Of a DNA stretch of 64,000 nt, positions 1 through 59,905 are shown in pieces. The notes below the pieces were generated by a model. The model did not search any database. It worked only from the letters and a program-made list of their open reading frames with translations, and was not told the DNA's origin. The DNA is from a virus. The stretch is from positions 1 to 64,000 of the IMG/VR virus record IMGVR_UViG_3300022723_000207; one strand, 5' to 3'. The position numbers and the translations under genes are program-made. How positions within the stretch are numbered: the first letter of the stretch is position 1; each line of letters begins with the position of its first letter.

Positions 1-337
1 TACATCATCTACTTCTACTTCAAGTGATTCTTCACTGAGTAGTCTGAGCACATCTAGTTCTAGTAGTGATGATACTTCTAGTTCTAGCTCAAGTAATACT
101 CCTTCTACATCATCTACTTCTACTTCAAGTGATTCTTCACTGAGTAGTCTGAGCACATCTAGTTCTAGTAGTGATGATACTTCTAGTTCTAGCTCAAGTA
201 ATACTCCTTCTACATCATCTACTTCTACTTCAAGTGATTCTTCACTGAGTAGTCTGAGCACATCTAGTTCTAGTAGTGATGATACTTCTAGTTCTAGCTC
301 AAGTAATACTCCTTCTACATCATCTACTTCTACTTCA
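1..337 (+). repeat. Perfect 105-bp tandem repeat inside the Ser-rich gene
   Basis: The same sequence begins at bases 1, 106, 211 and 316 with no substitutions until base 337, so there are 3.2 copies of a 105-bp unit (35 codons). The array probably continues past the left edge. Identity at third codon positions means recent duplication or ongoing homogenisation rather than protein-level selection alone. Confidence 0.9.
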
Positions 338-3300
338 TCTGACAGCAGCTTAAGTTCTCAAAGTACTAGCAGCTCAAGCAGCTCTAATACCCCTTCAACA
401 TCTTCTTCACAATCTAGCCTGAGTACTAGCTCAAGTTCCAGCAATACTCCATCCACATCTTCAAGTTCTACTTCAAGTGATTCTTCTTTAAGTAGCTTGA
501 GCACTAGTTCTAGTTCAAGTAATACTCCGTCTACAAGCAGTTCTTCGTCATCCCCATCTAGCCTGAGCACTAGTTCTAGTTCAAGTAGCTCTAATACTCC
601 ATCTACCAGCTCTAGTTCATCTTCACCATCTAGTTTGAGCACTAGCTCTAGCTCAAGTAATACTCCATCTACATCGTCCACGTCTACCTCTAGCAGCTCT
701 TCTCAGAGTAGCCTAAGCACATCTAGTTCAAGTAGCTCTAATACCCCGTCTACTTCATCTAGCACAATTTCAAGTGGGTCAAGTAGTTCTAGCTCCAGCA
801 ATACTCTATCTAGCTCGACTTCTAGCGATGATGATAGCTCAACCTCGACTTTTAGTTCAAGTAGCTCTAATACTCCATCTAGTTTAAGCAGCTCTAGCTC
901 CAGCAATACTCCATCCACATCTTCAAGTTCTACTTCAAGTGATTCTTCATTAAGCAGTCTGAGCACCAGCAGCTCTAGCTCCAGCAATACTCCATCCACA
1001 TCTTCTACTTCAAGTGATTCTTCATTAAGCAGTCTGAGCACCAGCAGCTCTAGCTCCAGCAATACTCCATCCACATCTTCTACTTCAAGTGATTCTTCAC
1101 TGAGTAGTCTGAGCACCAGCAGCTCTAGCTCCAGCAATACTCCTTCTACAAGTTCTAGTTCTAGTTCTACTTCAAGTGATTCATCTCAGAGTAGCTCAAG
1201 TAGCTCTAACACCCCTTCTAGTTCATCATCTAGTGATGACGACAGTTCTAGTTCTACTTCTAGCTCAAGTAGCTCTAACACCCCGTCCACATCTTCTAGT
1301 TCTATTTCAAGTGATTCTTCTTTAAGTAGCCTGAGCACCAGCAGCTCCAGCAATACTCCATCCACATCTTCAAGTTCTACTTCAAGTGATTCTTCGCTAA
1401 GTAGTTTGAGTACTAGTAGCTCAAGCAGCTCTAACACTCCATCTACAAGCAGCTCAACTTCTTCTGATTCAAGTGTTAGCAGCAGCTCTAGCTCCAGCAA
1501 TACCCCATCAACCTCATCCTCTAGCAGCACACCAAGTTCTCAGAGTGATGTTCAGAGCGAGTCTACTTCTAGCTCCAGCAATACTCCATCTACTAGTTCT
1601 ACTTCTATTTCAAGTGATTCTTCTCAGAGTAGCCTGAGCATTAGTAGTTCTAGCTCCAGCAATACTCCATCTACTAGTTCTACTTCTATTTCAAGTGATT
1701 CTTCTCAGAGTAGCCTGAGCATTAGTAGTTCTAGCTCCAGCAATACTCCATCTACAAGCAGCTCCTCTTCAAGAAGTTCAGTAAGCACTTCTAGTTCTAG
1801 TTCAAGTAATACTCCATCTTCAAGTTCTACTTCTTCGACAAGTAGTGAATCTGGCGCAAGTGAATCGACTTCTAGCACTGCGTCTACAGCATCTTCGATT
1901 AGTAGCAACAGCTCGTTATCAACAAGCAGCACCGACTCTACCGCATCTGAATCATCAGAGTCGATGTCGTCAGCTTCTGAATCGTCAGAGTCTGAATCGT
2001 CGTTGTCAGAATCTAGTTTGTCGATTAGTTCTATTAGTTCATTATCAACTCAATCCGACTCTACCGCATCTGAATCATCAGAGTCGATGTCGTCAGCTTC
2101 TGAATCGTCAGAGTCTGAATCTACCGTGTCAGCCTTATCGATTAGCTCTATCTCAACAGGCTCTTCTAGCTCTTCGACTTCACTGTCTTCTGTTAGCACA
2201 TCAAGCAGCAGCTCTAACACCCCATCTACTAGCAGTACATCAAGCAGCAGCTCTAACACACCCAGTTCAAGTAGCTCCTCTAGCTCTACCTTCTCGTCGC
2301 CTACTAACTCATTTAGTAGCATTTCATCAAGTAGTAGCTCTAACACTCCATCGACAAGTAGCAGCTCAAGCTCTAGTGGATCCAGCAGTAGCTCGCCCTC
2401 TAGTAATACTCCATCGACAAGCAGCTCTGGTACATCTTCGTCAAGCAGCCCTACGTCTCAGTCTGAGTCTAGCGAATCTGAATCGACTGCTTCAGAATCA
2501 ACAGTATCTGCATCATCTATAAGTTCTGTTTCGACAAGCTCTTCCAGCTCGCCAACTTCTGTTTCTGAGTCTAGCTTCTCTGAGTCAACCGCTTCTGAGT
2601 CAACTGTTAGCGCTTCTAGTGTTTCGTCTGTGTCAACACTATCTTCAGAAAGTAGCTCAAGCTCAAGTTCTAATACTCCTTCTTCTATTAGCTCTCTTAC
2701 TACCAGTGTTTCTTCAGAGTCAAGCTCAAGTTCTAATACTCCTTCTTCTATTAGCACGTCAAGTTCTACTTATTCATCTCCCACTAACTCGTTTAGTAGC
2801 GCTAGCTCTTCTAGCTCTAGCAATACCCCAAGCAGCTTAAGTAGTACTTCATCAACATCATCTACTGCTACATCTCAAACCAGTGGGTCATCAACTTCCA
2901 CATCTTCTGAATCAGCATCTACACAATCTGATTCCACTGAGTCAGAGTCGACAAATTCTGAATCAACTGTCAGCGCATCATCTATAAGCTCGGTTTCTAC
3001 AAGCTCATCAAGTTCACCTACTAGTCAGTCATTATCCACTGATTCTGATTCTACTGTTTCAGAGTCAACAAATTCAGAATCTACAGTTTCAGCTTCGACT
3101 ATTAGCTCTATCTCTACTGGGTCATCTGACAGTACGTCAAGCGGCAGCTCTAACACCCCATCCACTAGTACCTCTGCATCTCCAAGCAGTACTTCAAGTA
3201 CATCAAGCTCTTCTTATTCATCTCCTACCAACTCGCTAAGCTCATCGTCATCTAGCAATACTGAGTCTAGCACCAGTTCTTCATCTTATTCGTCTCCTAC

Positions 3301-3919
3301 AAATTCAGAATCTTCTTCTACAAGCCAGACTTCGCCAACAACCCAGTCTGAGACATCAGTCTCTGAGTCTACTGTTTCCGAATCGTCTGTGTCTGACACG
3401 TCGGTTTCTACTTTAAGCACTACTAGCAGCAGCACCCCATCAACTCAATCTGACTCGACGGAATCAGAAACCTCGGTGTCAGAATCTACGGTGTCAGAAT
3501 CCACTGTCTCTGACTCCACAGCTACATCAGTTACGACTTCATCGTCTAGTGAGTCGCAGTCTAGCGCTTCTTCGGATAGCACGTCTCAGACTAGCATATC
3601 TTCTGAGTCATCGACGAGTAGCGCCGTTGGTTCCAGTTCTAGTACTAGTGCACCATTCTCTCAAAGCTCTGCATCTAGCTCTAGTAATACGCCTAGCTCT
3701 CAGACAAGCTTGTCGTCTGAGTCTTCTTCAAGCTCTGGTGCTCCTGGATCTAGCCTTAGTAGCTTAACAACAGGTTCAACTGATACTTCATTAAGTAGTG
3801 AAAGCAGCAGTAGTTCTGTAAGTTCTGTCAGTTCTGAGAGCAGTGAGTCTTCGCCAAATGTTTCATCATCATCGTCCAGTTTTGTGGAAGATGATATTGC
3901 GTTTGGATTCTTATTTTAG
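1..3919 (+). CDS. Giant Ser/Thr-rich mucin-like repeat protein (5' end outside window)
   Basis: The frame is open from the left edge (first full codon at base 2) to a TAA at 3917-3919, giving about 1,305 visible residues; the true start lies outside. Almost the whole chain is Ser, with Thr, Asn-Thr-Pro triplets and scattered Asp, Glu and Leu. The recurring phrase is SSSSSNTPSTSS. From about base 1850 acidic phrases such as SESTVSASSISSVST become common. No globular domain, transmembrane helix or cysteine is visible; only the extreme C-terminus (FVEDDIAFGFLF) differs and could be an anchoring or assembly peptide. Such composition is typical of extended, O-glycosylated stalks. It ends tail to tail with a cluster of glycosyltransferase genes. 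I infer a virion fibre or surface stalk that is a glycan acceptor; no catalytic role is suggested. An adhesin-like, non-virion role remains possible. Confidence 0.8.
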   Translation, partial: TSSTSTSSDSSLSSLSTSSSSSDDTSSSSSSNTPSTSSTSTSSDSSLSSLSTSSSSSDDTSSSSSSNTPSTSSTSTSSDSSLSSLSTSSSSSDDTSSSSSSNTPSTSSTSTSSDSSLSSQSTSSSSSSNTPSTSSSQSSLSTSSSSSNTPSTSSSSTSSDSSLSSLSTSSSSSNTPSTSSSSSSPSSLSTSSSSSSSNTPSTSSSSSSPSSLSTSSSSSNTPSTSSTSTSSSSSQSSLSTSSSSSSNTPSTSSSTISSGSSSSSSSNTLSSSTSSDDDSSTSTFSSSSSNTPSSLSSSSSSNTPSTSSSSTSSDSSLSSLSTSSSSSSNTPSTSSTSSDSSLSSLSTSSSSSSNTPSTSSTSSDSSLSSLSTSSSSSSNTPSTSSSSSSTSSDSSQSSSSSSNTPSSSSSSDDDSSSSTSSSSSSNTPSTSSSSISSDSSLSSLSTSSSSNTPSTSSSSTSSDSSLSSLSTSSSSSSNTPSTSSSTSSDSSVSSSSSSSNTPSTSSSSSTPSSQSDVQSESTSSSSNTPSTSSTSISSDSSQSSLSISSSSSSNTPSTSSTSISSDSSQSSLSISSSSSSNTPSTSSSSSRSSVSTSSSSSSNTPSSSSTSSTSSESGASESTSSTASTASSISSNSSLSTSSTDSTASESSESMSSASESSESESSLSESSLSISSISSLSTQSDSTASESSESMSSASESSESESTVSALSISSISTGSSSSSTSLSSVSTSSSSSNTPSTSSTSSSSSNTPSSSSSSSSTFSSPTNSFSSISSSSSSNTPSTSSSSSSSGSSSSSPSSNTPSTSSSGTSSSSSPTSQSESSESESTASESTVSASSISSVSTSSSSSPTSVSESSFSESTASESTVSASSVSSVSTLSSESSSSSSSNTPSSISSLTTSVSSESSSSSNTPSSISTSSSTYSSPTNSFSSASSSSSSNTPSSLSSTSSTSSTATSQTSGSSTSTSSESASTQSDSTESESTNSESTVSASSISSVSTSSSSSPTSQSLSTDSDSTVSESTNSESTVSASTISSISTGSSDSTSSGSSNTPSTSTSASPSSTSSTSSSSYSSPTNSLSSSSSSNTESSTSSSSYSSPTNSESSSTSQTSPTTQSETSVSESTVSESSVSDTSVSTLSTTSSSTPSTQSDSTESETSVSESTVSESTVSDSTATSVTTSSSSESQSSASSDSTSQTSISSESSTSSAVGSSSSTSAPFSQSSASSSSNTPSSQTSLSSESSSSSGAPGSSLSSLTTGSTDTSLSSESSSSSVSSVSSESSESSPNVSSSSSSFVEDDIAFGFLF
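981..1140 (+). repeat. 75-bp tandem repeat inside the Ser-rich gene
   Basis: The phrase ccagcaatac recurs at 981, 1056 and 1131, giving a 75-bp (25-codon) period with near-identical units. A slightly longer version of the unit precedes it at about 901. Confidence 0.75.
1571..1755 (+). repeat. 81-bp tandem duplication inside the Ser-rich gene
   Basis: The block starting agctccagca at 1571 is repeated at 1652 and partly at 1733, an 81-bp (27-codon) period that is perfect until base 1755. It encodes the phrase SSSNTPSTSSTSISSDSSQS twice. Confidence 0.8.
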
Positions 3920-18645: not shown

Positions 18646-18846
18646 CTAATAAGTTTTATGCTGGGGTCGCACAATGTCGTTTAATGATAGTTCTCCATTA
18701 TTAATTTTGTTCAATATTGTTTCGATTTCATTTTCTAATGCTATTCTTTGAGTGTTTAAATTTTCAATTTTAATTCTTTCTGTATTATGTGACATCTTTA
18801 AATGTACAGTAAATAATTTGTCAATGCAGTTACCTAATGTGTCCAT
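18646..18846 (-). CDS. Small DUF4254-like helical protein, 66 aa
   Basis: I chose the ATG at 18846 because GAGAGGAA sits just upstream; the frame is open further but that part overlaps the homing endonuclease. The protein reads as two helices: CIDKLFTVHLKMSHN and the phrase LNTQRIALENEIETILNKI. This resembles the LS-I-NLK-xWH .. LN-QR-xL-xEID pattern of DUF4254-like phage proteins. The first gene of this cluster (19632-19994) has the same pattern, so the two look like paralogues. The start overlaps the end of the LAGLIDADG gene by 17 bases. Confidence 0.5.
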   Translation of the reverse strand: MDTLGNCIDKLFTVHLKMSHNTERIKIENLNTQRIALENEIETILNKINNGELSLNDIVRPQHKTY

Positions 18847-19648
18847 GCAGATTCCTCTCAAAGTTAAATTTTTTCCTTGACATATATATTGAGCTGCTAT
18901 CATAAAACCAGTTATAGATTGACAGTATTTTAGATTTATCAGTAGTCCTAATCCTAAATAAATCTTTTAAGTCATTACCATGCTTGGTTTTTCTAAACCT
19001 TGCGCTTCTTTTATCACAATATACTTTAATGCTGCATCCTATTTCTTTTAATATTTTGTTTATACTATGCAGGATATTATAGTGCGGTGAAGAAATATTA
19101 AACTCTCTTGGTCCTATAGACCCATCGCCGTCAAAAAAACCACGCATCAAATGGCGATGAGATTTTATCTCTTTAAATATCTTAGGGTTTCCATCATATT
19201 TAAAATTATTCCAGCCAATAGATATTAAACTTTTACATATCGATTTTGAGCATATTTCGATCTTAGACGTCTTGCTATTCGGTGATATCCTATTATTGCT
19301 TATTATTATTGGAATTGATTCGCATACGTATGCACCAAATTTTTTTAAATGATCGTAATCTTTGTAAGATAATTCGACTACTATTTTGTTTTTGTTGATA
19401 TGGCCGTCAGCTAGCAAGAAGCCTAGCCAATAATCACCATATTCTGTGTTGATTGGCCATTTACTGAATGTTTTATGATGATATGAATGGTACCTTCTAA
19501 TACTAACCCCTAATTTTCTAATGAATGATGTCATATTATTAGGAGCCACTGAAAATTCTCTAGCCAGACTAGAAGAACTTCTACCATTTTCATATTCATT
19601 GATGATATACGATTTTACATTGTTGTCTAAATCAACTAATTTGGACAT
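18830..19648 (-). CDS. LAGLIDADG homing endonuclease
   Basis: 272 residues. The N-terminus has a helix-turn-helix (SSSSLAREFSVAPNNMTSFI). Two LAGLIDADG helices follow: DYWLGFLLADGHI near residue 75 and HLMRGFFDGDGSIG near 170, each ending in the catalytic acidic residue. It sits between two related small genes on the same strand and overlaps both by 17 bases, with lower GC than them. This is the pattern of a free-standing homing gene that inserted precisely between neighbours. It would cut the same site in relatives that lack it. Confidence 0.85.
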   Translation of the reverse strand: MSKLVDLDNNVKSYIINEYENGRSSSSLAREFSVAPNNMTSFIRKLGVSIRRYHSYHHKTFSKWPINTEYGDYWLGFLLADGHINKNKIVVELSYKDYDHLKKFGAYVCESIPIIISNNRISPNSKTSKIEICSKSICKSLISIGWNNFKYDGNPKIFKEIKSHRHLMRGFFDGDGSIGPREFNISSPHYNILHSINKILKEIGCSIKVYCDKRSARFRKTKHGNDLKDLFRIRTTDKSKILSIYNWFYDSSSIYMSRKKFNFERNLHGHIR

Positions 19649-19994
19649 TTTTGGCTGCTACTTTATCTATTGCATCCATTAGATTGGCTCTTTGAACATT
19701 CAGATCACAACATCTTTTGATTGTCATGTGTAATTCTTTAAGATTGTTATCATATTGTTTTATAAATTCATCAGTATCCATAAATCTTATAGCATATAAT
19801 ACTTCCTGGTTTGACCACATTTGAGTAGTCACACATGCTAATTTTGATATTAACGTACCAACAGAGTCGCACTCTGATGGGTCATTCTCTTTTAAGGCGT
19901 CTAGATAGTGTCTGCCATCTTTTCCGATTTCTTTCTTGATGTTAACATGGTCAGTTGAATCTAGTTTGTCCATTATTTTGTCATATATGAACAC
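19632..19994 (-). CDS. DUF4254-like helical protein, 120 aa
   Basis: It starts at GTG 19994, supported by AAGGAG nine bases upstream. The chain is helical: LISKLACVTTQMWSNQEVLY, then DEFIKQYDNNLKELHMTIKR and the phrase LNVQRANLMDAIDKV. This resembles DUF4254-type proteins common in phages, whose role is not known. The last residues (AAKNVQIS) overlap the start of the homing endonuclease, so the natural C-terminus may have been altered by the insertion. Confidence 0.5.
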   Translation of the reverse strand: MFIYDKIMDKLDSTDHVNIKKEIGKDGRHYLDALKENDPSECDSVGTLISKLACVTTQMWSNQEVLYAIRFMDTDEFIKQYDNNLKELHMTIKRCCDLNVQRANLMDAIDKVAAKNVQIS

Positions 19995-20032
19995 GTATTG
20001 TTTCTCCTTGTTGTTTACAATATTTTTGGTTT

Positions 20033-20041
20033 AAATACGTC
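20033..20041 (+). promoter_or_regulatory. TTTAAATAC promoter-like motif before the structured RNA
   Basis: TTTAAATAC at 20033-20041 precedes the structured block, and the same nonamer recurs at 20549-20557 before the gene at 20579. A very similar CTAAATACA is at 9171-9179 upstream of the switch-like leader. It may be a phage promoter core. Confidence 0.35.
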
Positions 20042-20545
20042 CCCACCGCTTTCCCATGGGAGATCCCCTTGGAAAAAGATCTTAAAGAATGTTTCCGAAC
20101 TCTTCTGAACTTAGGTCTCTAGGCTGCTATTCTTTTATTTGCGGTAGTGTTTCCACTATCCTCTGAGTTTCGGGTTATAAAACCCGCTCCCATTTCAGCA
20201 GCCGGGGCAGAATCGGACAAAGCACTAGTGGGGAACTTCTAGTGTCCGCATTACGCGGAGCCTCCTTGTCAGACCTTATTCAGATCATTCTATGTCCCGA
20301 AGATCTTTCCAAGACGAACAGACGACACGTGTAGACCCAAGGCGAAGCCCTCAAGAGCCAACCGTCTATTCTCGATCCATCCACGCCCCGGTGGTTTTAA
20401 CGCCCGATTAGGCATGGAGGGTTCTTGCTAAGACCCCTGGTCGAAATCAGCCTGATTAGGTTTCGCCAAAAGTTTGCGGTCATTTCTCTAGTCTCTGTGC
20501 CTAATGGCATCTCGATGTAGACCTGACTTTTGGGGTTCGGTTTTT
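20041..20545 (+). ncRNA. Large structured non-coding RNA candidate, about 500 nt
   Basis: No open frame is convincing here. The block folds into collinear nested helices: 20068-20083 with 20300-20313 (14 bp, two A bulged), 20086-20091 with 20286-20291, 20104-20109 with 20279-20284, 20113-20118 with 20271-20276, then 20122-20128 with 20197-20203. Inside are hairpins 20143-20160, 20171-20186, 20215-20247 and 20246-20258. A second domain has hairpins 20381-20394, 20419-20436 and 20445-20457 and a long helix 20466-20473 with 20526-20533. A G-U pair in hairpin 20143-20160 favours the plus strand. It lies between divergent genes and has promoter-like motifs on both sides. It does not show tRNA, tmRNA, RNase P or group I intron signatures. 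Large phage RNAs such as GOLLD or ROOL are comparators only. Confidence 0.7.
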
Positions 20546-20578
20546 GGATTTAAATACACACAAGGACAAAAATAAGTC

Positions 20579-21145
20579 ATGAAACTAATAAACGATTTAA
20601 TAATTGAACAAAATGGCATTCTTTCTGTAGTTCGATCAGGAACTCTGATTAGAGAGACGGTAGAAGATTTCTTTTCTCAGTATGTTTCTGAGATACCAAA
20701 AAACGCTAAAATTATTAAGAATACGGTAGAAGACTTTACCGATAAGGTGGAAGGCCGTCAAACAGATGTTGACGACTTTGATATGCATCATGTGGATGTA
20801 GCAGAAGGTGAATTTATTTTTCAATCATCAGTTCCATTGACTGATGAAATCATCAGGGATTTTCAAGAGGAAATTGAGGAGCCAGTTACAGCTGAAAAAA
20901 TGGCTAACTATATTCAGGAAGATTTAGATGAAAATGATTTGTATGAAATTTTGGTCAGTAAATTATTGCCTGGTTTGGAAGGTTATACAAGAGAGGATGA
21001 TGATCGCGCAGCTGTAGTGGATTATGGCCTAAATGGTTACAATCTTAATCTGACAATCAAAATGAATATTAATCGTTATGATATGGCAGATGAACCGTTT
21101 CACAAGGGCAGTTACCGAACTGGTGGCTATTATCCAGATGCCTGA
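20579..21145 (+). CDS. Hypothetical protein, 188 aa
   Basis: First gene of a plus-strand row running to 25.5 kb. The protein is acidic with amphipathic helices (DFFSQYVSEIPKNAK, TDEIIRDFQEEIEE, MANYIQEDLDENDLYEILVS) and a Gly/Tyr-rich C-terminus (HKGSYRTGGYYPDA). No family recognised. The TTTAAATAC motif 22 bases upstream may be its promoter. There is only a weak ribosome site. Confidence 0.6.
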   Translation: MKLINDLIIEQNGILSVVRSGTLIRETVEDFFSQYVSEIPKNAKIIKNTVEDFTDKVEGRQTDVDDFDMHHVDVAEGEFIFQSSVPLTDEIIRDFQEEIEEPVTAEKMANYIQEDLDENDLYEILVSKLLPGLEGYTREDDDRAAVVDYGLNGYNLNLTIKMNINRYDMADEPFHKGSYRTGGYYPDA

Positions 21146-21528: not shown

Positions 21529-21896
21529 TCGTTGAGCTTATTACTGTTCTCTTAATATTGATTGTTAGCGGGATTGTTAGCGGGATAGTTTGCCGTATTG
21601 TTTGTTATGGCATTAAACAACGTTGTGAAAGCAATGAGCGAATTGCAGCATTGATAGTAAATGCTTTAAGACACTATTCAGAAATACATAGGGAATGGAT
21701 AGAGTATCAGGCTACTAATGGACCAAAACGCTTTACTAACAACCCAGAGAGTAGCCCTAGAACTGCTGAAAAAGAATCAACTGGAGACGAAGATCGATCA
21801 GCTATGGCGATCGGTCCGCAGCCGGAAGATTACCTCTCGAAAATTTCTAAAGGAACTAAAACGGCTGTGTCATTTGGAGAAGATGTCTCCGAGTGA
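21525..21896 (+). CDS. Small membrane-anchored protein, 123 aa
   Basis: The first 28 residues (VELITVLLILIVSGIVSGIV) form one transmembrane helix, followed by a short helical cytoplasmic part (RIAALIVNALRHYSEIHREW) and a polar, probably disordered tail. ATGA overlap with the gene before suggests coupling. From 21718 on, another frame is also open and continuous with the actin-like gene, so the tail or that extension may not both be real. Confidence 0.5.
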   Translation: MIVELITVLLILIVSGIVSGIVCRIVCYGIKQRCESNERIAALIVNALRHYSEIHREWIEYQATNGPKRFTNNPESSPRTAEKESTGDEDRSAMAIGPQPEDYLSKISKGTKTAVSFGEDVSE

Positions 21897-21951
21897 AGTA
21901 GATAATATCAAATGGCATTATACAGCATTACTCATTAAGAGGGGCCAGCTA

Positions 21952-22983
21952 ATGCGCTTGGGACTCGATTTAGGCACTAAGAATATTGTTCTCTGTTACG
22001 AGGATGATGGTAAGATGCGTTTTCGCAGGGAGGTTAACGGTTTTTATCGTCTTCCACAGGATAATAATTTCACTAAGAATATGCTAGTATCCGCTGGAGT
22101 ACCGTATATTGAAATGGATGGTGCTTTTGTAGCATTAGGTGGTAAAGCAGAAGAAATTGCCCATGCCTTCAATAAGACTCTGCGTCGCCCAATGCAAGAA
22201 GGTGTCTTGGCTCGTGGTGAGGAAGATGCTATTGAAATCATGGCTATTATTGTTCAAAACCTCATTGGCTTTGATCTAGCAGAAGATGCTACTTTATACT
22301 ATTGTGTACCAGCTCCTGCACTTAATGCTGATGTCAACACGGACTTCCACCAAAGAATTGCCCAATTGATTATTAATGGTTATGAAAGCCAAAGTGGCAA
22401 ATCTTTAACGGGTCATCACGTCAATGAAGCACATGCTCTTGTCTTATCGTCGTTACCAGCTCCCACGGGTATCGGTATTTCTTGGGGCGCTGGCATGGTT
22501 AATGTTTGTTATTGTCTTTTTGGGCTTCCTGTTTACAGCTTTTCTCTTGTTGGTTCTGGTGACTGGATCGATACAGAGGCAGCGCGGCAGTTCGGTTATG
22601 ACCCCAAGAATCCAGAGGGGGACTACAAACACACCCCCACGTCCATTGCCAGGCTAAAAGAAGAGGTCAGCTTGACGGGAATGCCGTCAGACCCTACTAA
22701 GCGGGCGATTTATGTTTGTTATACTATTCTTATGGATAAGGTTATCGATGGAATCATTGATGGCTTTAAGAAGAATGAAGATAAGGCTCGCATTAACGAC
22801 GAAATACCTGTCGTAGTAGCAGGTGGTACTTCTAGCCCTGAAGGCTTTACTGAACTTTTCAAAGAACAATTCATGAAGAAGAATCCGCCATTTAAGGTCG
22901 GAGAGATAACTAGACCAGAGAAACCACTTTTCGCAGTAGCAGAAGGGTGTCTTCGCGCTGCACAACTACATGAGGAGGACTAA
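21952..22983 (+). CDS. Actin-like ATPase (ParM/MreB superfamily)
   Basis: 343 residues from the ATG at 21952, which has GAGGGG upstream and starts exactly at the first strand of the fold. Phosphate 1 is LGLDLGTKNIVLCYED, the connecting Glu is in VNEAHAL (residue 159), phosphate 2 is GIGISWGAGMVNVCYC (173-188) and the adenosine loop is VVVAGGTSSPEGF (287-299). These are the five-motif landmarks of actin-like ATPases. The frame is open 234 bases further upstream (a Lys-rich stretch, KITSRKFLKELKRL) and overlaps the membrane gene. Such phage filaments position DNA or virion parts or segregate genomes. It is followed 2 bases later by a histone H1-like gene. Confidence 0.8.
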   Translation: MRLGLDLGTKNIVLCYEDDGKMRFRREVNGFYRLPQDNNFTKNMLVSAGVPYIEMDGAFVALGGKAEEIAHAFNKTLRRPMQEGVLARGEEDAIEIMAIIVQNLIGFDLAEDATLYYCVPAPALNADVNTDFHQRIAQLIINGYESQSGKSLTGHHVNEAHALVLSSLPAPTGIGISWGAGMVNVCYCLFGLPVYSFSLVGSGDWIDTEAARQFGYDPKNPEGDYKHTPTSIARLKEEVSLTGMPSDPTKRAIYVCYTILMDKVIDGIIDGFKKNEDKARINDEIPVVVAGGTSSPEGFTELFKEQFMKKNPPFKVGEITRPEKPLFAVAEGCLRAAQLHEED

Positions 22984-38923: not shown

Positions 38924-39447
38924 GCTTTACTATACCAGATTTTGTTGACTATCCTGAGCTTTATAATGTTAGCGATAACCTTAAATTATTTAAGGGTGTT
39001 TTTGTATATGTCATCGAGCCTTATCCTGTAAAAGGTTATAGTTTATATATTGGCTTTAGGGAAGATTATAGCTTTTTCAGAATTGCTGATTTTAAGTCTA
39101 AGGAAATTGGTAAAGATGATTTAGATCAGCAGTCTCAAACTGTATTAGCCTGGTCTGCATTATTGAAAGAAGTGATGAAGTCAGCGCGAGTTACTGATGC
39201 CCTGTTTTATTTTTCGGCAGGAAAAGATTTAAGGTTAGTGGATGTCATGATGTCAGCCAATAAATTTCTTGGACCAGGTATGTTAAAAGACTTGTTTGCT
39301 AGTGTTGTGCCTACTCAAGAGGTAATAACTCATGTTGTTTTAGATGATGAAGAAATATCTAAATACAAAGGTAAGATAGTGAAGCCTAGTAGGTTCAGGT
39401 ATCTTACTGAAGAAGGATTAGTCAGGCCACAATACGGAATTATATAG
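38920..39447 (+). CDS. Hypothetical protein, 175 aa
   Basis: ATGA overlap with the preceding gene. Mixed alpha/beta, mostly uncharged start (LYNVSDNLKLFKGVFVYVIE) and a helical middle. Its stop overlaps the GTG start of the intein-bearing glycosyltransferase gene by one base. No family recognised. Confidence 0.5.
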   Translation: MSFTIPDFVDYPELYNVSDNLKLFKGVFVYVIEPYPVKGYSLYIGFREDYSFFRIADFKSKEIGKDDLDQQSQTVLAWSALLKEVMKSARVTDALFYFSAGKDLRLVDVMMSANKFLGPGMLKDLFASVVPTQEVITHVVLDDEEISKYKGKIVKPSRFRYLTEEGLVRPQYGII

Positions 39448-42329
39448 TGCAATATTTGTTTAGGAACATTAAGGGACATACGGTTAAGTTGCCAGGGCGT
39501 GATGGCAAGCTGGTACATTTCGCAGTTGGTGAGCAGAAAGCTTTGGATTCTTATTTTAAGAAGTATGCTCCAAAGTATTTGGCGGTTGTTAGGGAAGTTA
39601 AGGGTAAGGCAGTAAATGTCAGCAATCAGAGAGTACGTGTAGTAAAGCCCAAGACTAAAAAAACTAGTGAACCTAAAAAAGTACTGATAACACGTAAAGC
39701 AGCCAATTCTACTATTACTGTCGACAATGGCAGAAGGGTTATAAAGACTTCGAAAGTTGTCGGCAGGGCGTCTAAAATAGGGCGCAAGAATGCCACTGCT
39801 TTTTCCCAAGCCAGGATTACGGAAAATTCTGTTCCAATCTCTAATGATATTGGTGTTGGTATACTAAGTTTTAATCGTTTAAAATCACTAATACCACTTA
39901 TTGAATCTATTCGTAAATATACAGATTTAAAAAAGACAACTATTTTTGTTAGCGATGAAAGTACAAATCCAGAAGTATGGAATTGGCTTAAAGAACAAAA
40001 GGACATTGTAGTTTTTCATGAAGAACGCAAGGGAATCGCTGTTAACACTAACAGGATTTTGAGATGCCTTGCTCGTTTTAAGTATAAATTGCTCCTTAAT
40101 GATGATGTTGAAGTATTAAAGGAGGGCTGGGATTCTTTTTATTTTGAAGCAATGAAAAAAACCGGTTTGAAACATTTTTGCTATCGGCAGCGAGGGATTT
40201 ATGGAGCTGAAAGACCTAGAGCTGATTCAAAAGGTCTCTTAAAGATCGTAGAGAAGCCTCATGGTGCTGTATTGGCAGTTCATGATGATGCATTTAGAGA
40301 AGTTGGTTATTTCGATGAGGGATTTGGCACTTATGGATTTGAACACGTAGAATATAGTGATCGCATAGCCAGAGTCTGTCATAAAGAAGATGGTTATTTT
40401 GATGTAAGCGGGTCTGACTCTTATTTTAGAATTTACGATGATACTTCAAGTGATCCAGAAAAGCACAGAAATTATGCCAAAGCCAAAAAACGGTATGCCG
40501 AAACCCCTAAAAATAGGAAATTTGTTGATACTACTGATAATTCTGCAGTTCCTGGAATTACTTATATTATCCCTTTTAGGGATATTGGTCGGCAAGAGTG
40601 CGTTAGGACAGTGGTAAACAATATCAAAGCTCAGCGCTACCCTGAAATTCAAATTATTTTAGCCGAACAAGATGAGCGTTTAAAGACTAGCTTTAGCTGT
40701 ATTGATCATATATTAGTTAAGAGCTGGTTTAAAGGTATGCACTTTTGTAAGGCGGCAGCATTTAATAGAGGTGTTGAGGTTGCGAAATTTGATAAGCTGA
40801 TTTTACATGATGCGGATATGTTGGTTAGGTCTGACTATACGCACAATCTGTCTATATTATTAACAAAGTATGAGTCGGCCCATATAGGTGCCACTGTTTG
40901 TTATATGGAGAAAGAGTCTACTGATAAGATTGTTCGTAATCAGTCTATTAATAGAGATCAAGTGTCTAGTGATAGAATTGTTAATTATTACGAAGGAGGG
41001 TCTTTTGGTATTTTGAAATCTGCCTACATTAGAATAGGTGGATTCTGTGAAGATTTCATAGGTTATGGGTGTTTCACTGAAAATAATTATGTGGTTACTT
41101 CTGACGGTTTGGTTGACATTAAAGATGTTCAAGTAGATGACTATGTTTTAACACATACTGGTGAATACCATGCAGTAACCAGAAAGTTCATTAGAAATCA
41201 TGGTGGTGAAGTACATGACATCTTCATCCCTGGGAGATTGCCAATAAAAGGAGTGACTGAAGAACATCCATTCTTGGTTGACGGCGAATGGATTAGGGTT
41301 GATGATCTAAAAATCGGCATGAAATCAACATTTCAACCAGATTATTTAGACCTAGTTCAATATCAAGACCTTAGTTATATTTCTAATGCTGACAATTCAA
41401 AAAATGAAATAAATATTGATTTTTACTCAAAAGAATTTTCATGGTTTGTTGGAGTGTTTTTGGCTGAAGGAGTTGTTAAATTAAACAAAGCGGTATACTT
41501 GTACATCGCAGAAGACGAATCATGCTTATTGTCAAGAATATTAGACATGATTAACAAAATAAACCCGATGATCTCAGTTAAATCTCATTATGTTAAAAAT
41601 GGGTGTAGGGAAGTAAGAATATTTAGTTCAAAATTGGCTAAAATAATTAATGCTGTTTCACCAAAATCAATTGCAAGAAACAAAGTGCTAGCCAAATGGT
41701 ATATTGAAAAGTTGAACACCAATTCTAAGCTATGGCTCCTTAATGGTTTGATAGATGGTGATGGCGATAAGCAACATGGATCCAAAAAAAGGTTAGTTTA
41801 TACGACTGGTAGTATAAACCTAGCTAACATTATATCGATGATGATGGGCGAATCTGGCATAACACATAGCTTTGGAATAAGAAAAACTGGTGGTTTTACA
41901 GAAAATGATTATTATTCATTAACAATAAATAGAAATTGTGAAAGATTTTTAGATGTTGTTGGCATGATAAAAGAAGATGTCGTAAGTCATGACTCAAATT
42001 TTGGGCACATAAATGAAATAAGAAAAAGACTGGTTAATGAGCCTGTTTACAATTTAGAAGTAGAATGCGATAATTCATATATAGTTAATGGTGTGGTTGT
42101 TCATAATTGTGAAGACACAGAGTTTTATAAGAGGATGACCGAAGGAACAAAGAGTTTTACGCAGAGGTCTGTTGATCTGTTTCATTTGTGGCATGGTCGC
42201 ACTGATGGCTGGACTGAACGCCATGACATTAATAAGAATATTCAAGTTAAAATGTTTAAAGAGAATCAAGTTTCTTTGTACAAGAGACTAAATAAGTTTT
42301 TGCTGAATAAGTATGAAGGATTAAAGTGA
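39447..42329 (+). CDS. Two-domain glycosyltransferase interrupted by an intein
   Basis: 960 residues as translated; 614 after removal of the 346-residue intein. The N-terminal 70 residues (YLFRNIKGHTVKLPGRDGKL) form a small separate domain, then a Lys/Arg-rich linker. GT domain 1 (about 135-330): GVGILSFNRLKSLIPLIESI and YKLLLNDDVEVL (DDxE metal site). GT domain 2 (about 370-560): GITYIIPFRDIGRQECVRTV, KLILHDADMLV (DxD), and GGFCEDFIGYG directly before the intein, continuing CEDTEFYKRM after it. That junction is the catalytic ED motif region of GT2 enzymes. The pair resembles chondroitin-polymerase-like two-domain transferases. It lies in the replication region, away from the other glycan genes. 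Confidence 0.85.
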   Translation: MQYLFRNIKGHTVKLPGRDGKLVHFAVGEQKALDSYFKKYAPKYLAVVREVKGKAVNVSNQRVRVVKPKTKKTSEPKKVLITRKAANSTITVDNGRRVIKTSKVVGRASKIGRKNATAFSQARITENSVPISNDIGVGILSFNRLKSLIPLIESIRKYTDLKKTTIFVSDESTNPEVWNWLKEQKDIVVFHEERKGIAVNTNRILRCLARFKYKLLLNDDVEVLKEGWDSFYFEAMKKTGLKHFCYRQRGIYGAERPRADSKGLLKIVEKPHGAVLAVHDDAFREVGYFDEGFGTYGFEHVEYSDRIARVCHKEDGYFDVSGSDSYFRIYDDTSSDPEKHRNYAKAKKRYAETPKNRKFVDTTDNSAVPGITYIIPFRDIGRQECVRTVVNNIKAQRYPEIQIILAEQDERLKTSFSCIDHILVKSWFKGMHFCKAAAFNRGVEVAKFDKLILHDADMLVRSDYTHNLSILLTKYESAHIGATVCYMEKESTDKIVRNQSINRDQVSSDRIVNYYEGGSFGILKSAYIRIGGFCEDFIGYGCFTENNYVVTSDGLVDIKDVQVDDYVLTHTGEYHAVTRKFIRNHGGEVHDIFIPGRLPIKGVTEEHPFLVDGEWIRVDDLKIGMKSTFQPDYLDLVQYQDLSYISNADNSKNEINIDFYSKEFSWFVGVFLAEGVVKLNKAVYLYIAEDESCLLSRILDMINKINPMISVKSHYVKNGCREVRIFSSKLAKIINAVSPKSIARNKVLAKWYIEKLNTNSKLWLLNGLIDGDGDKQHGSKKRLVYTTGSINLANIISMMMGESGITHSFGIRKTGGFTENDYYSLTINRNCERFLDVVGMIKEDVVSHDSNFGHINEIRKRLVNEPVYNLEVECDNSYIVNGVVVHNCEDTEFYKRMTEGTKSFTQRSVDLFHLWHGRTDGWTERHDINKNIQVKMFKENQVSLYKRLNKFLLNKYEGLK
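41070..42107 (+). mobile_element. Intein with LAGLIDADG endonuclease in the glycosyltransferase
   Basis: Residues 542-887 of the host protein. It starts with Cys in CFTENNYVVTSDGLVDIKDV (block A), has GVTEEHPFLVDGEW (block B, Thr-x-x-His), LAGLIDADG helices WFVGVFLAEGVV and WLLNGLIDGDGD, a block F-like VYNLEVECDNSYIVNG and ends VVVHN before extein Cys888. All splicing residues (Cys1, His-Asn, +1 Cys) are present. Removal restores the run FIGYGCEDTEFYK of the transferase, so the boundaries are firm. Confidence 0.9.
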
Positions 42330-52299: not shown

Positions 52300-53730
52300 A
52301 TGGAATTTGTACCGATAGCTTTAAAAGATTTGGCAGACAAATACCAAAATGGTAGTTCGCTGAGATCTTTAGCGAAAGAATTTGGAACATCTAAATTAAC
52401 TATAAAAAGGAAATTGCAAAAAGCGGGAATTCCTGTTTTGAGTTCTAAAGAATTTATACAAAACAATAAAGAAAAACATAGACGGCAGTCATCTAATAGA
52501 TATAATTACGATCAAAAAATATTTGATGATTACCATAAAGAAAATAAATCTATAAACCAGATAATTAATTTTTATGATGTATCTGAATCAAAAGTTCGTA
52601 GAATTATTGGCACTACAAGAATAATTGATGGTAATTACATAGCTTCTAGGTTTGCTGATATTTATAATGAAGTAAAGCCGGATTGGATTGATAGTGACAA
52701 TTTGTATAATTTATATTATAATGAAAAATGGTCTATTTCTGATATTGCCAAACATTACGGGTATGATGAAGAATCTATTAGACAAGCATTTATTAAATAT
52801 GGAATTAAAAGAAGGAGCACATCAGAAGCCACTTTTTTATGTAATAAAAATAAGAATTATGAGTCTGGATTAGAAGCAGTTGTTAAAAGAATATTAGATG
52901 ATAACAGCGTAAAATATGATAAAGTGATTTTTGGTGGTTATGAATTTGATTTTTTAATTGATAATAAACTATTATTGGAGATTAATGGTTTGTTTTATCA
53001 TTTAAATTGTGATAAGAAGGTTAAAAGAGATGAAGAAAAATATGAATATTGGCACAATAATCTTAGAGAAAAATATGACTTTAAAATATTATGGGAACAT
53101 TTCGCTGAGTCAGTTGGCTCTCTATATGATTTATTAAATAAGTGGATTGGTTTTAATAATGAATATATTGATAAAATCAATATAAGATTTGATAATATAT
53201 CATATAGCGAAGCTGATAATTTTTGTAAATCGTATCACTATCATAGAAAAACTAGAAAAGGTTGTTATTATGGCGCTTTTTATGATGGTGAAATGATCGG
53301 TGTTGCGGTGTTTTCATCGATAACTCGCAAGCAGTCTGCTGATAGATTAGGTGTTTTGACTACTCAAATCAAAGAACTAACTAGATTTTGTATTAATCCG
53401 CGTTTCAAATCTGATAATCTAGCATCGTTTTTGTTGGCAAAATTCGAAAAATTATTTAAAAAATATTCTAATAATACAACAATATTATTAACGTTTGCAG
53501 ATCAAACGACTGGTCATATAGGAACAGTGTATAAAGCATGTAATTGGATTCCTGATGGTGAAACAAAAGAATCTTATTACTATGAGAAAGGTGGCATGAG
53601 ATGGCACAAGAGAACCATATGGCAACATGCAAAGTCTTTAAAAATGAAAGAGATGGAGTTTGCATCGTTGTTTGGTATAAGTAGAGTTAACACTTTAAAG
53701 AAATATAGATTTATTAAGATGGTTAAGTAA
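52300..53730 (+). CDS. Vsr-like homing endonuclease with HTH repeats and acyltransferase-like tail
   Basis: 476 residues, AT-rich. Three helix-turn-helix units at the start (SLRSLAKEFGTSKLTIKRKL, SINQIINFYDVSESKVRRII, SISDIAKHYGYDEESIRQAF). Residues 190-275 are the EDxHD nuclease fold (SGLEAVVKRILDDNSVKYDK, then FDFLIDNKLLLEINGLFYHL and YDFKILWEHF). The last 180 residues (ADNFCKSYHYHRKTRKGCYY, GAFYDGEMIGVAVFSS, LTRFCINPRFKSDNLASFLL, LTFADQTTGHIGTVYKACNW) resemble an acetyltransferase-fold domain of the Mom type. Such tails occur on phage Vsr-type enzymes. It lies between two neck or tail genes without damaging them, so it is a free-standing homing gene. Confidence 0.75.
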   Translation: MEFVPIALKDLADKYQNGSSLRSLAKEFGTSKLTIKRKLQKAGIPVLSSKEFIQNNKEKHRRQSSNRYNYDQKIFDDYHKENKSINQIINFYDVSESKVRRIIGTTRIIDGNYIASRFADIYNEVKPDWIDSDNLYNLYYNEKWSISDIAKHYGYDEESIRQAFIKYGIKRRSTSEATFLCNKNKNYESGLEAVVKRILDDNSVKYDKVIFGGYEFDFLIDNKLLLEINGLFYHLNCDKKVKRDEEKYEYWHNNLREKYDFKILWEHFAESVGSLYDLLNKWIGFNNEYIDKINIRFDNISYSEADNFCKSYHYHRKTRKGCYYGAFYDGEMIGVAVFSSITRKQSADRLGVLTTQIKELTRFCINPRFKSDNLASFLLAKFEKLFKKYSNNTTILLTFADQTTGHIGTVYKACNWIPDGETKESYYYEKGGMRWHKRTIWQHAKSLKMKEMEFASLFGISRVNTLKKYRFIKMVK

Positions 53731-57037: not shown

Positions 57038-59905
57038 ATGGCGACGTTTCTAAGTCCTGCAGTTTTTGTGAATGAAATCGACCTGAGCGCCCTCCCAGGC
57101 GGATCAAGCGGTATCATTCCTGCTTTTATTGGCACTGCTAATAAGGGTCCGGTAAATGAGCCTCAGGTCATTACTAATGCGCAACAGTTTGTAGATTCTT
57201 TTGGGAATCCTTTCCCAGAGAGTTTCTTGGGGTATGCTGTAATTGCATATCTTGAGGAAGGAAATGTCGCTTGGGTTAATAGGGTTGGTGTTGAATGTGA
57301 AGATGGCCAAGTAGAAGAATTAGATAGCATTTGCATAGATACTTCTGGAAATCAGGGTAAAGGTTGGGGTCGCATTCCAATCTACCAGAATATCGATTTT
57401 GGTAAAATCTGTAGTCGTGATATTGATGATGGTTTTAGTTTTCATGATCAGTCTATCACTTTTGTCGAGTTCAATGATGCGATTGTTAACGATGTAACTT
57501 TTGGTCCTACTGCTGCTACATTAACATTCACTGGTACTGATTACACTGCTCCTATCGATGATGAATTCTTAGTGATCATCACTACTGCCCCAACTACTGT
57601 TGGTAGCGTTATGGATGGTGCAGGATACTCTGTTATTCGCAGCTCAGATGGTCTTGAGGTTGATTCAGGGGCCATTGTCGAGAGTGGTACACCAGGCACC
57701 AGCGAAGACATTGCGTTGAGTGATGGTATAATCGTTCAAATTGTGGTGTCCGCAGGCACACTGGACGTTAATGATAGCTTCCGGTTTAGTGTGGAGCCTG
57801 ATAATCGTTCATTCTCATTCAATGTGACTGATAATGTGACTCGTTGTGGATTTAGAGATCCTAGTGATGTTGAAACTTTCAGTCTTACTGGCGATTATAC
57901 AGATGTTGAGGTTTTAGTAACTGATATCTTGGCTATCTCTGGGTTCTCGGCTGAGGATTATACTGTAGTAGTGGACGGCGATACTATCTGCTTTAGAACT
58001 GAGAATAATGGTGATGCGATTCAGCTAGTAGGATCTGAAGCTTTTGCATTAGAGATCGGTCAGAGCCTCTACGCCTTTGATATTCCTAGGTCTAATCTAG
58101 TAGGAATTCAGCCTGAACCTTTCGATATTACCTCTGATAATAGCACTGCTAAGTTTGAGGTTGAGTCTAATACTGGCAAGACACAGTTCACCGCGACTAT
58201 TCCAGTAGGGTTCGATATTCCAGCAGCTACAATTGCCTCGGCAATTAATGCTGCTGCGACTGTTTCTGGCGACACATTAGTTTGTTCTTATCCGCTGACG
58301 ATCCCAGGTGGTGATGTTGTTCTAGTGGTTGAAACCACGGTTGATCACCAACTAGATCAGCTCAAATTGTTAGCTAATGGTAGTAATATCTCTTCGGTAA
58401 GATTCGCTGAAGAGGTTGGGTTTATTTTCCCATATACTGAAAACTTTAGAGGTTTCTTCGATTCTCGCACTATTCTTCCTGAGGGCGGCGAGGTGACAGA
58501 AGAGACTCCCCTCTCCTGCGAGGAATTCTTGGATGGTGACTCCAGTCAAGAGGCTCAATGTACGTTAGATGCTGCGTACTATGCCAACATTGTTGGTTGG
58601 TTTGTGGCTACCTCTGCAGGCACTTGGGTTGACAGTTACACGCTTGATCTAGAGAGATTTGAGGGAGATGTCACAGAGCCTGGTAGGTTTACTCTTAAAC
58701 TTTATGATAATCAAGATGTGTTGATCTTCCGTCTGGATGATTTCAGTTTCAATCCGGGTAGTGATGCTTATATTGGAGATCAGATTAATCCTGGCACCAG
58801 TGGTGGTGGCGTTAATGGCAACGAATTCATTAATTGGATTAATCGTCCTGATTTCTTAGGTGGTGACGCCACCAGTGATGATTTTGAGGATCGTGAGCCA
58901 GCTTCCTTCTTCAATCGGGAGTTTGCTGGACAAGCCAATGGCATCCCGGCTGATCCTGCCTTTAGCAGTGAATTAGATCGTGCCATTATTGGTAATCCTG
59001 CGTTGCAGACTGGTCTGTTCAAATTCTCTGATCCAGAACGCTTTGATATTAGCCTATTGGCTGCCCCTGGCTTTAGCAGCGGGGCAGTGATTACAACGGG
59101 CATTTCAATTGCTACTCAGCGTGGTGATGTCCTTTATCTGGTGGATGCTCCATTCGGCTTGAATGCGCAGCAGGTTGTTGACTGGCATAATGGCCTTCTG
59201 TTCAATGACTTACAAGCCGCGCTTAATAGTAGCTATGGCGCTTTGTACTACCCATATGTGAAGATCAGTGATCAGTTTAATGGGGGCAATATCTTCACAC
59301 CTCCATCAGGCCATGTTGCTTCGGTATTCGCACGCACAGAGCGTGAGAATGAGCAATGGTTCGCACCAGCTGGTCTGCGTAGAGGTAAACTAAGTCAGGC
59401 TCTAGATCTTGAGATCGACGTAACTCGTGGTGAAAGAGATCTTCTCTACGGTCTGAATAATGCGGTCAATCCGCTTGTCAATTTCCCTCAGCGTGGCATT
59501 CATGTTTGGGGTCAGAGAACTTTACAGAGGCTGGATAGTGCGCTCGATCGCATCAATGTTCGTATGCTCTTATCCTTCATTAAGAAGGGCTTGGCTGGAC
59601 CTAATGGCCTGCTTAATGATTTCATCTTTGAACAGAACGATGAAATCACTCGTTCATCTGTCACGTCGGTCGTGTCCGGATTTATGGGTGATATTCAGGC
59701 AAGAAGGGGTGTTACTGGTTTCCGCGTGATTTGCGATGAGACTAATAATACTCCAGTGCGTATTGATAGGAATGAGCTTCATGTCGCTCTTCTTATTAAG
59801 CCGACTCGCGTTGCCGAATTTATCGTCTTAAACATTGCTGTGCTTCGCACTGATCAGAGCTTCTCTAGTGAAGAGGTTCTGGCTGCTGCTGGCGTGGTAG
59901 TCTAA
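57038..59905 (+). CDS. Tail sheath protein (gp18-like)
   Basis: 955 residues, ATG preceded by GGAG. The start (LSPAVFVNEIDLSALPGGSS, GIIPAFIGTANKGPVNEPQV) and end (FAPAGLRRGKLSQALDLEID-like phrasing, then VNPLVNFPQRGIHVWGQRTL and DRINVRMLLSFIKKG) are the classical sheath N- and C-terminal handshake domains. It is longer than T4 gp18 (659), the extra being two or more beta insertion domains between residues 130 and 650 that would project outward from the sheath. It forms the contractile sleeve. Confidence 0.95.
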   Translation: MATFLSPAVFVNEIDLSALPGGSSGIIPAFIGTANKGPVNEPQVITNAQQFVDSFGNPFPESFLGYAVIAYLEEGNVAWVNRVGVECEDGQVEELDSICIDTSGNQGKGWGRIPIYQNIDFGKICSRDIDDGFSFHDQSITFVEFNDAIVNDVTFGPTAATLTFTGTDYTAPIDDEFLVIITTAPTTVGSVMDGAGYSVIRSSDGLEVDSGAIVESGTPGTSEDIALSDGIIVQIVVSAGTLDVNDSFRFSVEPDNRSFSFNVTDNVTRCGFRDPSDVETFSLTGDYTDVEVLVTDILAISGFSAEDYTVVVDGDTICFRTENNGDAIQLVGSEAFALEIGQSLYAFDIPRSNLVGIQPEPFDITSDNSTAKFEVESNTGKTQFTATIPVGFDIPAATIASAINAAATVSGDTLVCSYPLTIPGGDVVLVVETTVDHQLDQLKLLANGSNISSVRFAEEVGFIFPYTENFRGFFDSRTILPEGGEVTEETPLSCEEFLDGDSSQEAQCTLDAAYYANIVGWFVATSAGTWVDSYTLDLERFEGDVTEPGRFTLKLYDNQDVLIFRLDDFSFNPGSDAYIGDQINPGTSGGGVNGNEFINWINRPDFLGGDATSDDFEDREPASFFNREFAGQANGIPADPAFSSELDRAIIGNPALQTGLFKFSDPERFDISLLAAPGFSSGAVITTGISIATQRGDVLYLVDAPFGLNAQQVVDWHNGLLFNDLQAALNSSYGALYYPYVKISDQFNGGNIFTPPSGHVASVFARTERENEQWFAPAGLRRGKLSQALDLEIDVTRGERDLLYGLNNAVNPLVNFPQRGIHVWGQRTLQRLDSALDRINVRMLLSFIKKGLAGPNGLLNDFIFEQNDEITRSSVTSVVSGFMGDIQARRGVTGFRVICDETNNTPVRIDRNELHVALLIKPTRVAEFIVLNIAVLRTDQSFSSEEVLAAAGVVV

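Follow-up and report, generated by a model that had tools for sequence, protein, structure and literature searches.

A folded non-coding element upstream of an actin-like gene in a contractile-tailed phage, a candidate orphan RNA gene

The locus, its genes and its promoter motifs

The window, the whole stretch of DNA analysed, comprises 64,000 nt of a 153,184-base IMG/VR virus record (G000). The record is that of a contractile-tailed phage with a T4-type tail sheath, and between 104 and 133 kb it carries more than 20 tRNAs, a one-piece tmRNA and a group I intron. The tmRNA (L006:4102-4448, record positions 128102-128448), with the tag ADDHVSYAPVAVAA, is located inside the large tRNA island together with the intron.

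The region studied is a gap of 584 nt (19995-20578) that holds no ORF of at least 60 aa and has divergent genes on both sides, so the description given by the sequence-only reading, a region with no credible gene between divergent genes, is borne out. ORFs were called mechanically with this cut-off, and the records may be incomplete. The G+C content of the element within the gap reaches 0.50, compared with 0.30-0.38 in the flanks. The Pfam search of frame fragments revealed no protein remnant within the element, and a decayed protein gene was rejected on this ground. The features of the locus, with the evidence for each, are:

18830-19648, minus strand: free-standing LAGLIDADG homing endonuclease gene (PF14528, phrog_4645)
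19632-19994, minus strand: left neighbour, a 120-aa gene with function unassigned (ORF list, family searches)
20021-20028, minus strand: CAAAAATA, promoter motif, probably late, facing left, for gene 19632-19994 (enrichment, genome rank 17, kept before the sheath genes of relatives)
20023-20038, no strand assigned: left copy of a 16-nt direct repeat flanking the element (repeat search)
20039-20549, no strand assigned: the whole non-coding element (ORF-free gap 19995-20578, G+C peak, partition-function helices)
20542-20557, no strand assigned: right copy of the 16-nt direct repeat, 88% (repeat search)
20567-20574, plus strand: CAAAAATA, promoter motif, probably late, facing right, 12 nt before the ATG of gene 20579 (enrichment, same spacing at four other genes)
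20579-21145, plus strand: right neighbour, a 188-aa orphan gene (no family or relative found)
21718-22983, plus strand: volactin (actin-like) gene of the rightward block (PF25216, E 2e-58)

The plus-strand block starting at 20579 runs on to volactin. Elsewhere in the window there is an ORF with long tandem repeats (1-3919; periods of 72-105 nt), apparently encoding a Ser/Thr-rich repetitive protein, and a glycosyltransferase with an intein-like insert (39447-42329). In several proteins of the record, matches to endonuclease-like (HNH or homing) and Mom-like DNA modification domains are combined, at window positions 52300-53730 and also at L003:9221-10534 and L004:2383-3843.

The motif CAAAWATA is enriched in the sense orientation in upstream regions of G000 (12 occurrences versus 2 antisense), and stands exactly 12 nt before the start of five genes, including gene 20579. 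The exactness of this spacing is as if the transcripts were nearly leaderless. In most relatives this motif, or one very like it, is found ahead of the sheath gene (21 of 36 with the strict pattern), and in the window a motif of this type lies 31 nt upstream of the sheath gene at 57038. Its position ahead of sheath genes suggests that it is the late promoter motif of the phage. The two CAAAAATA copies at the ends of the element both point outward, and neither drives it. No good copy of CAAAWATA able to drive the element was found, the internal match at 20141 (minus strand, genome rank 97) being weaker, nor was a sigma-70-like site for it. The idea that the RNA is driven by a late promoter of T4 type (TATAAATA or TTTAAATA) was rejected, since these sequences are not enriched upstream of genes.

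Fold of the element

Partition-function folding and a nested perfect-helix search recovered all five collinear helices of the sequence-only reading, with 14, 6, 6, 6 and 7 bp. The first is formed between 20068-20083 and 20300-20313, 14 bp with a 2-nt offset. It is followed inward by helices 2 (20086-20091/20286-20291), 3 (20104-20109/20279-20284), 4 (20113-20118/20271-20276) and 5 (20122-20128/20197-20203). The helices had been taken to close one domain of 505 nt; they enclose about 250 nt. The element is thus divided into two domains:

20066-20314, no strand assigned: left domain, a long branched arm of five collinear helices with inner hairpins (folding, shuffles, nested chain)
20315-20530, no strand assigned: right domain, weaker, folding differently on the two strands (z -2.4 on plus, -1.3 on minus)

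In the plus-strand fold the whole is closed by outer helices of 4, 4 and 5 bp (20039-20042/20546-20549, 20045-20048/20538-20541 and 20052-20056/20531-20535). The helices of the left domain are perfectly Watson-Crick paired and are therefore uninformative on the strand. The left domain has the better z on the minus strand, and the right domain on the plus strand.

The left domain folds with z -3.7 on the plus strand and -4.4 on the minus strand, and none of 200 shuffles was as good on either. For the region as a whole the values are -2.6 (plus) and -3.0 (minus); the mean z of 500-nt windows of G000 is -1.15, and seven lie below -4, so the energy of the whole region is unexceptional. Of 1000 dinucleotide shuffles, 1 gave a chain of nested perfect helices as long as this, and of 611 windows of G000, 3 did, one being the element's own; both the statistic and the domain limits were chosen after sight of the earlier claim and fold, and the choice of statistic matters. 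On this measure the nesting of perfect helices is rarer than chance; once G-U pairs are admitted to the chain, the element as a whole does not exceed shuffles (108 of 150 on plus, 65 of 150 on minus), and the left half on the plus strand is marginal (8 of 150).

Two further signals had been proposed. The local hairpins are not enriched, as 576 of 1000 shuffles equal their number. The 8-bp pseudoknot between 20408-20415 and 20498-20505 is present in the sequence, but we estimate that chance alone would give about two 8-mer pairs of this kind in 500 nt. Its 5' arm overlaps a predicted helix (20364-20371/20406-20413). The left domain is the one solid part of the element, beating all shuffles; the rest is unproven, given the weaker right half, whole-region energy, hairpins and G-U chain.

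The ordinary energy of the whole region and the weak right half would suit a spacer, or decayed inserted DNA, in which the helices are due to chance or are relics. So would the orphan sequence, the homing endonuclease gene nearby, and the 16-nt direct repeats that flank the element, which could be the mark of an insertion. However, the left domain lies beyond all shuffles, the G+C content is well above that of the flanks with no protein remnant inside, and G000 is otherwise without long gaps that lack an RNA gene. We consider a spacer or insertion fairly unlikely.

Related loci and a covarying RNA family upstream of volactin

No DNA match to the element was found in phage and plasmid collections, from which close relatives may be left out, and no homologue was detected by sequence or covariance-model searches. 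R1, a covariance model built on the inner part of the left domain, recovered no sequence but its own from approximately 2.6 Mb of related loci, and gave no hit in 49 records scanned over their full length. Weak BLAST matches in three records (G050, G051 and G057) all fall inside ORFs and were rejected. The record of a relative with 88% sheath identity, G002 (IMGVR_UViG_3300023202_000230), begins too far to the right to cover this locus.

A collinear relative reached via volactin (G001; 256 kb, about 55 shared proteins, sheath 51%) has its longest ORF-free gap, 737 nt (L002:5059-5795), directly upstream of its volactin block. The gap has the same address as the element and a similar length, is folded, and is followed by the promoter motif, 15 nt before the next ATG. 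However, it has no similarity to the element in sequence and no detectable one in structure, and homology of the two was rejected; the structural alignment lies within 1.3 sd of shuffles for all strand pairings. Just before the folded part, at L002:5174-5279, tandem arrays with units of 8 bp (AAAGTAGC, 8.4 copies) and 16 bp occur. Apart from the element and this gap, all ORF-free gaps in G000 and G001 that reach 300 nt carry tRNA or tmRNA genes. The two exceptions share the address upstream of volactin, and no other comparative argument speaks as strongly for RNA genes in both. Most of the 80 volactin loci have no long gap, and none was found in those of two huge phages (LR756511 and LR745208). 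The long gap of G031 was rejected as a counterpart, as its fold is weak (z -0.4). Two non-coding segments from two relatives, L153:8845-9150 and L188:19482-19878, have about 140 nt in common at 79% identity, with no match to Rfam or to tRNA.

The position directly upstream of the block in both G000 and G001 (lacking in G033) raises the question of a long structured 5' leader controlling the plus-strand block towards volactin. In both phages, however, the promoter motif of the next gene comes after the element or gap, and a transcript from the motif at 20567 would exclude the element. A leader is very unlikely.

The address could also be that of a DNA site at the boundary of two gene blocks, for example an origin of replication or a partition site used by the actin-like protein, with the inverted repeats acting as DNA hairpins or protein-binding sites. 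The cumulative GC skew of the record has its global minimum within the element, at 20389, and the element is situated between divergent blocks and outward promoters; volactin is nearby, and the G001 gap contains the 8-bp array. Yet gene orientation switches where the skew is lowest, and the minimum of G001, at 19.8 kb, is 5 kb off its gap. The element itself is without tandem repeats, and is G+C-rich rather than A+T-rich. A DNA site therefore seems unlikely.

Related phages carry a different RNA in this part of the genome. The gap of one volactin locus (L214) folds strongly (z -3.5), and its sequence is conserved in six other loci. In a core alignment of six sequences, built from sequence without structural fitting, pairing is kept despite changes on both sides at 25 of the 32 consensus pairs (raw counts). 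The resulting model, R2, matches 13 of 50 related phage records, always approximately 4-23 kb upstream of volactin (distances taken by hand) and in 12 of the 13 on the same strand. The RNA is about 350 nt long, with the motifs AACTCGAA, CTGATAGAG, GACGGCAG and TTCGACC. No Rfam family matched R2 in the loci tested, and it is neither tRNA nor tmRNA. As judged from these alignments, R2 is a covarying structured RNA family absent from Rfam. Its members include, besides those in further records:

L214:1935-2294
L220:1129-1474
L239:1190-1535
L223:2085-2463
L232:2794-3123
L234:2531-2941
L221:1-178

The strong covariation of R2 upstream of volactin indicates that RNA genes are usual in this genome part of the clade. 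The element is not itself an R2 member; with filters off the best R2 score was 5.1 bits, and lay elsewhere.

A candidate RNA gene and its comparison with known RNAs

The explanation that we favour, at slightly better than an even chance, is that the element is a structured non-coding RNA gene of an orphan class. An RNA-gene-like reading is plausible: the element does not code for protein, is rich in G+C, includes one domain whose fold is highly significant, and occupies one of the only two long gaps without a known RNA gene in two related genomes; a new RNA class is possible. Against an RNA gene stand the lack of a homologue and of a driving promoter, the ordinary whole-region energy and a G-U chain statistic that is not significant for the whole element. 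Moreover, the G001 gap is structurally unlike it, and most volactin phages are without such a gap.

As an RNA gene, the element would be transcribed from its own, still unrecognised promoter, located between the two outward-facing phage promoters, into an RNA of about 0.5 kb. This would fold as a two-domain molecule with the left domain as a long branched arm. This structured RNA would probably work in trans, by itself or together with protein, and not as the leader of a neighbouring gene, since the promoter motif of the plus-strand gene lies downstream of the element. Transcription, strand, autonomy and any function of the element are what we infer. A more elaborate proposal is that the clade keeps a wider set of large structured RNAs upstream of the volactin block and that the element is a counterpart of these which diverges fast; RNA and filament might then work together, for instance to position or segregate phage DNA. 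We regard this as quite unlikely. The window element alone is only a candidate. Together, a candidate outside every Rfam family and an independent covarying RNA upstream of the actin-like gene in its cousins mark a place to seek more such RNAs.

The known large phage RNAs GOLLD and ROOL form RNA-only oligomers, and the sequence-only reading had suggested that the element might be one of them. Searches with cmscan of the window and of 19900-20700, at gathering and relaxed thresholds (E up to 5, covariance-model E-values being rough), found no Rfam match, while the same library picked up the tRNA, tmRNA and group I intron of the record. The check that had been proposed against GOLLD, ROOL, OLE, HEARO and group I and group II introns thus gave nothing, and all of these, together with tmRNA, were rejected for want of a covariance-model match. 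GOLLD and ROOL are frequently encoded close to tRNA islands (PMC12286853), whereas the nearest tRNA of this record is near 107.6 kb. Lacking an Rfam match and not lying beside a tRNA island, the element is unsupported as GOLLD or ROOL.

Known large structured phage RNAs are few, and the functions of GOLLD and ROOL are unknown (PMC12286853). The element resembles GOLLD in being a candidate large structured phage RNA, and differs in lacking an Rfam match and in size and setting, GOLLD often being longer than 800 nt and near tRNA islands (PMC12286853). ROOL is a many-helix RNA of about 0.5-0.6 kb found in phages (PMC12286853), and the element is of similar size; it differs in having no Rfam match and in being far from the tRNA island. 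From R2 the element is distinct in sequence, length and architecture, but the two are alike as non-coding sequences, structured RNA in R2 and putatively so in the element, placed upstream of volactin in related phages.
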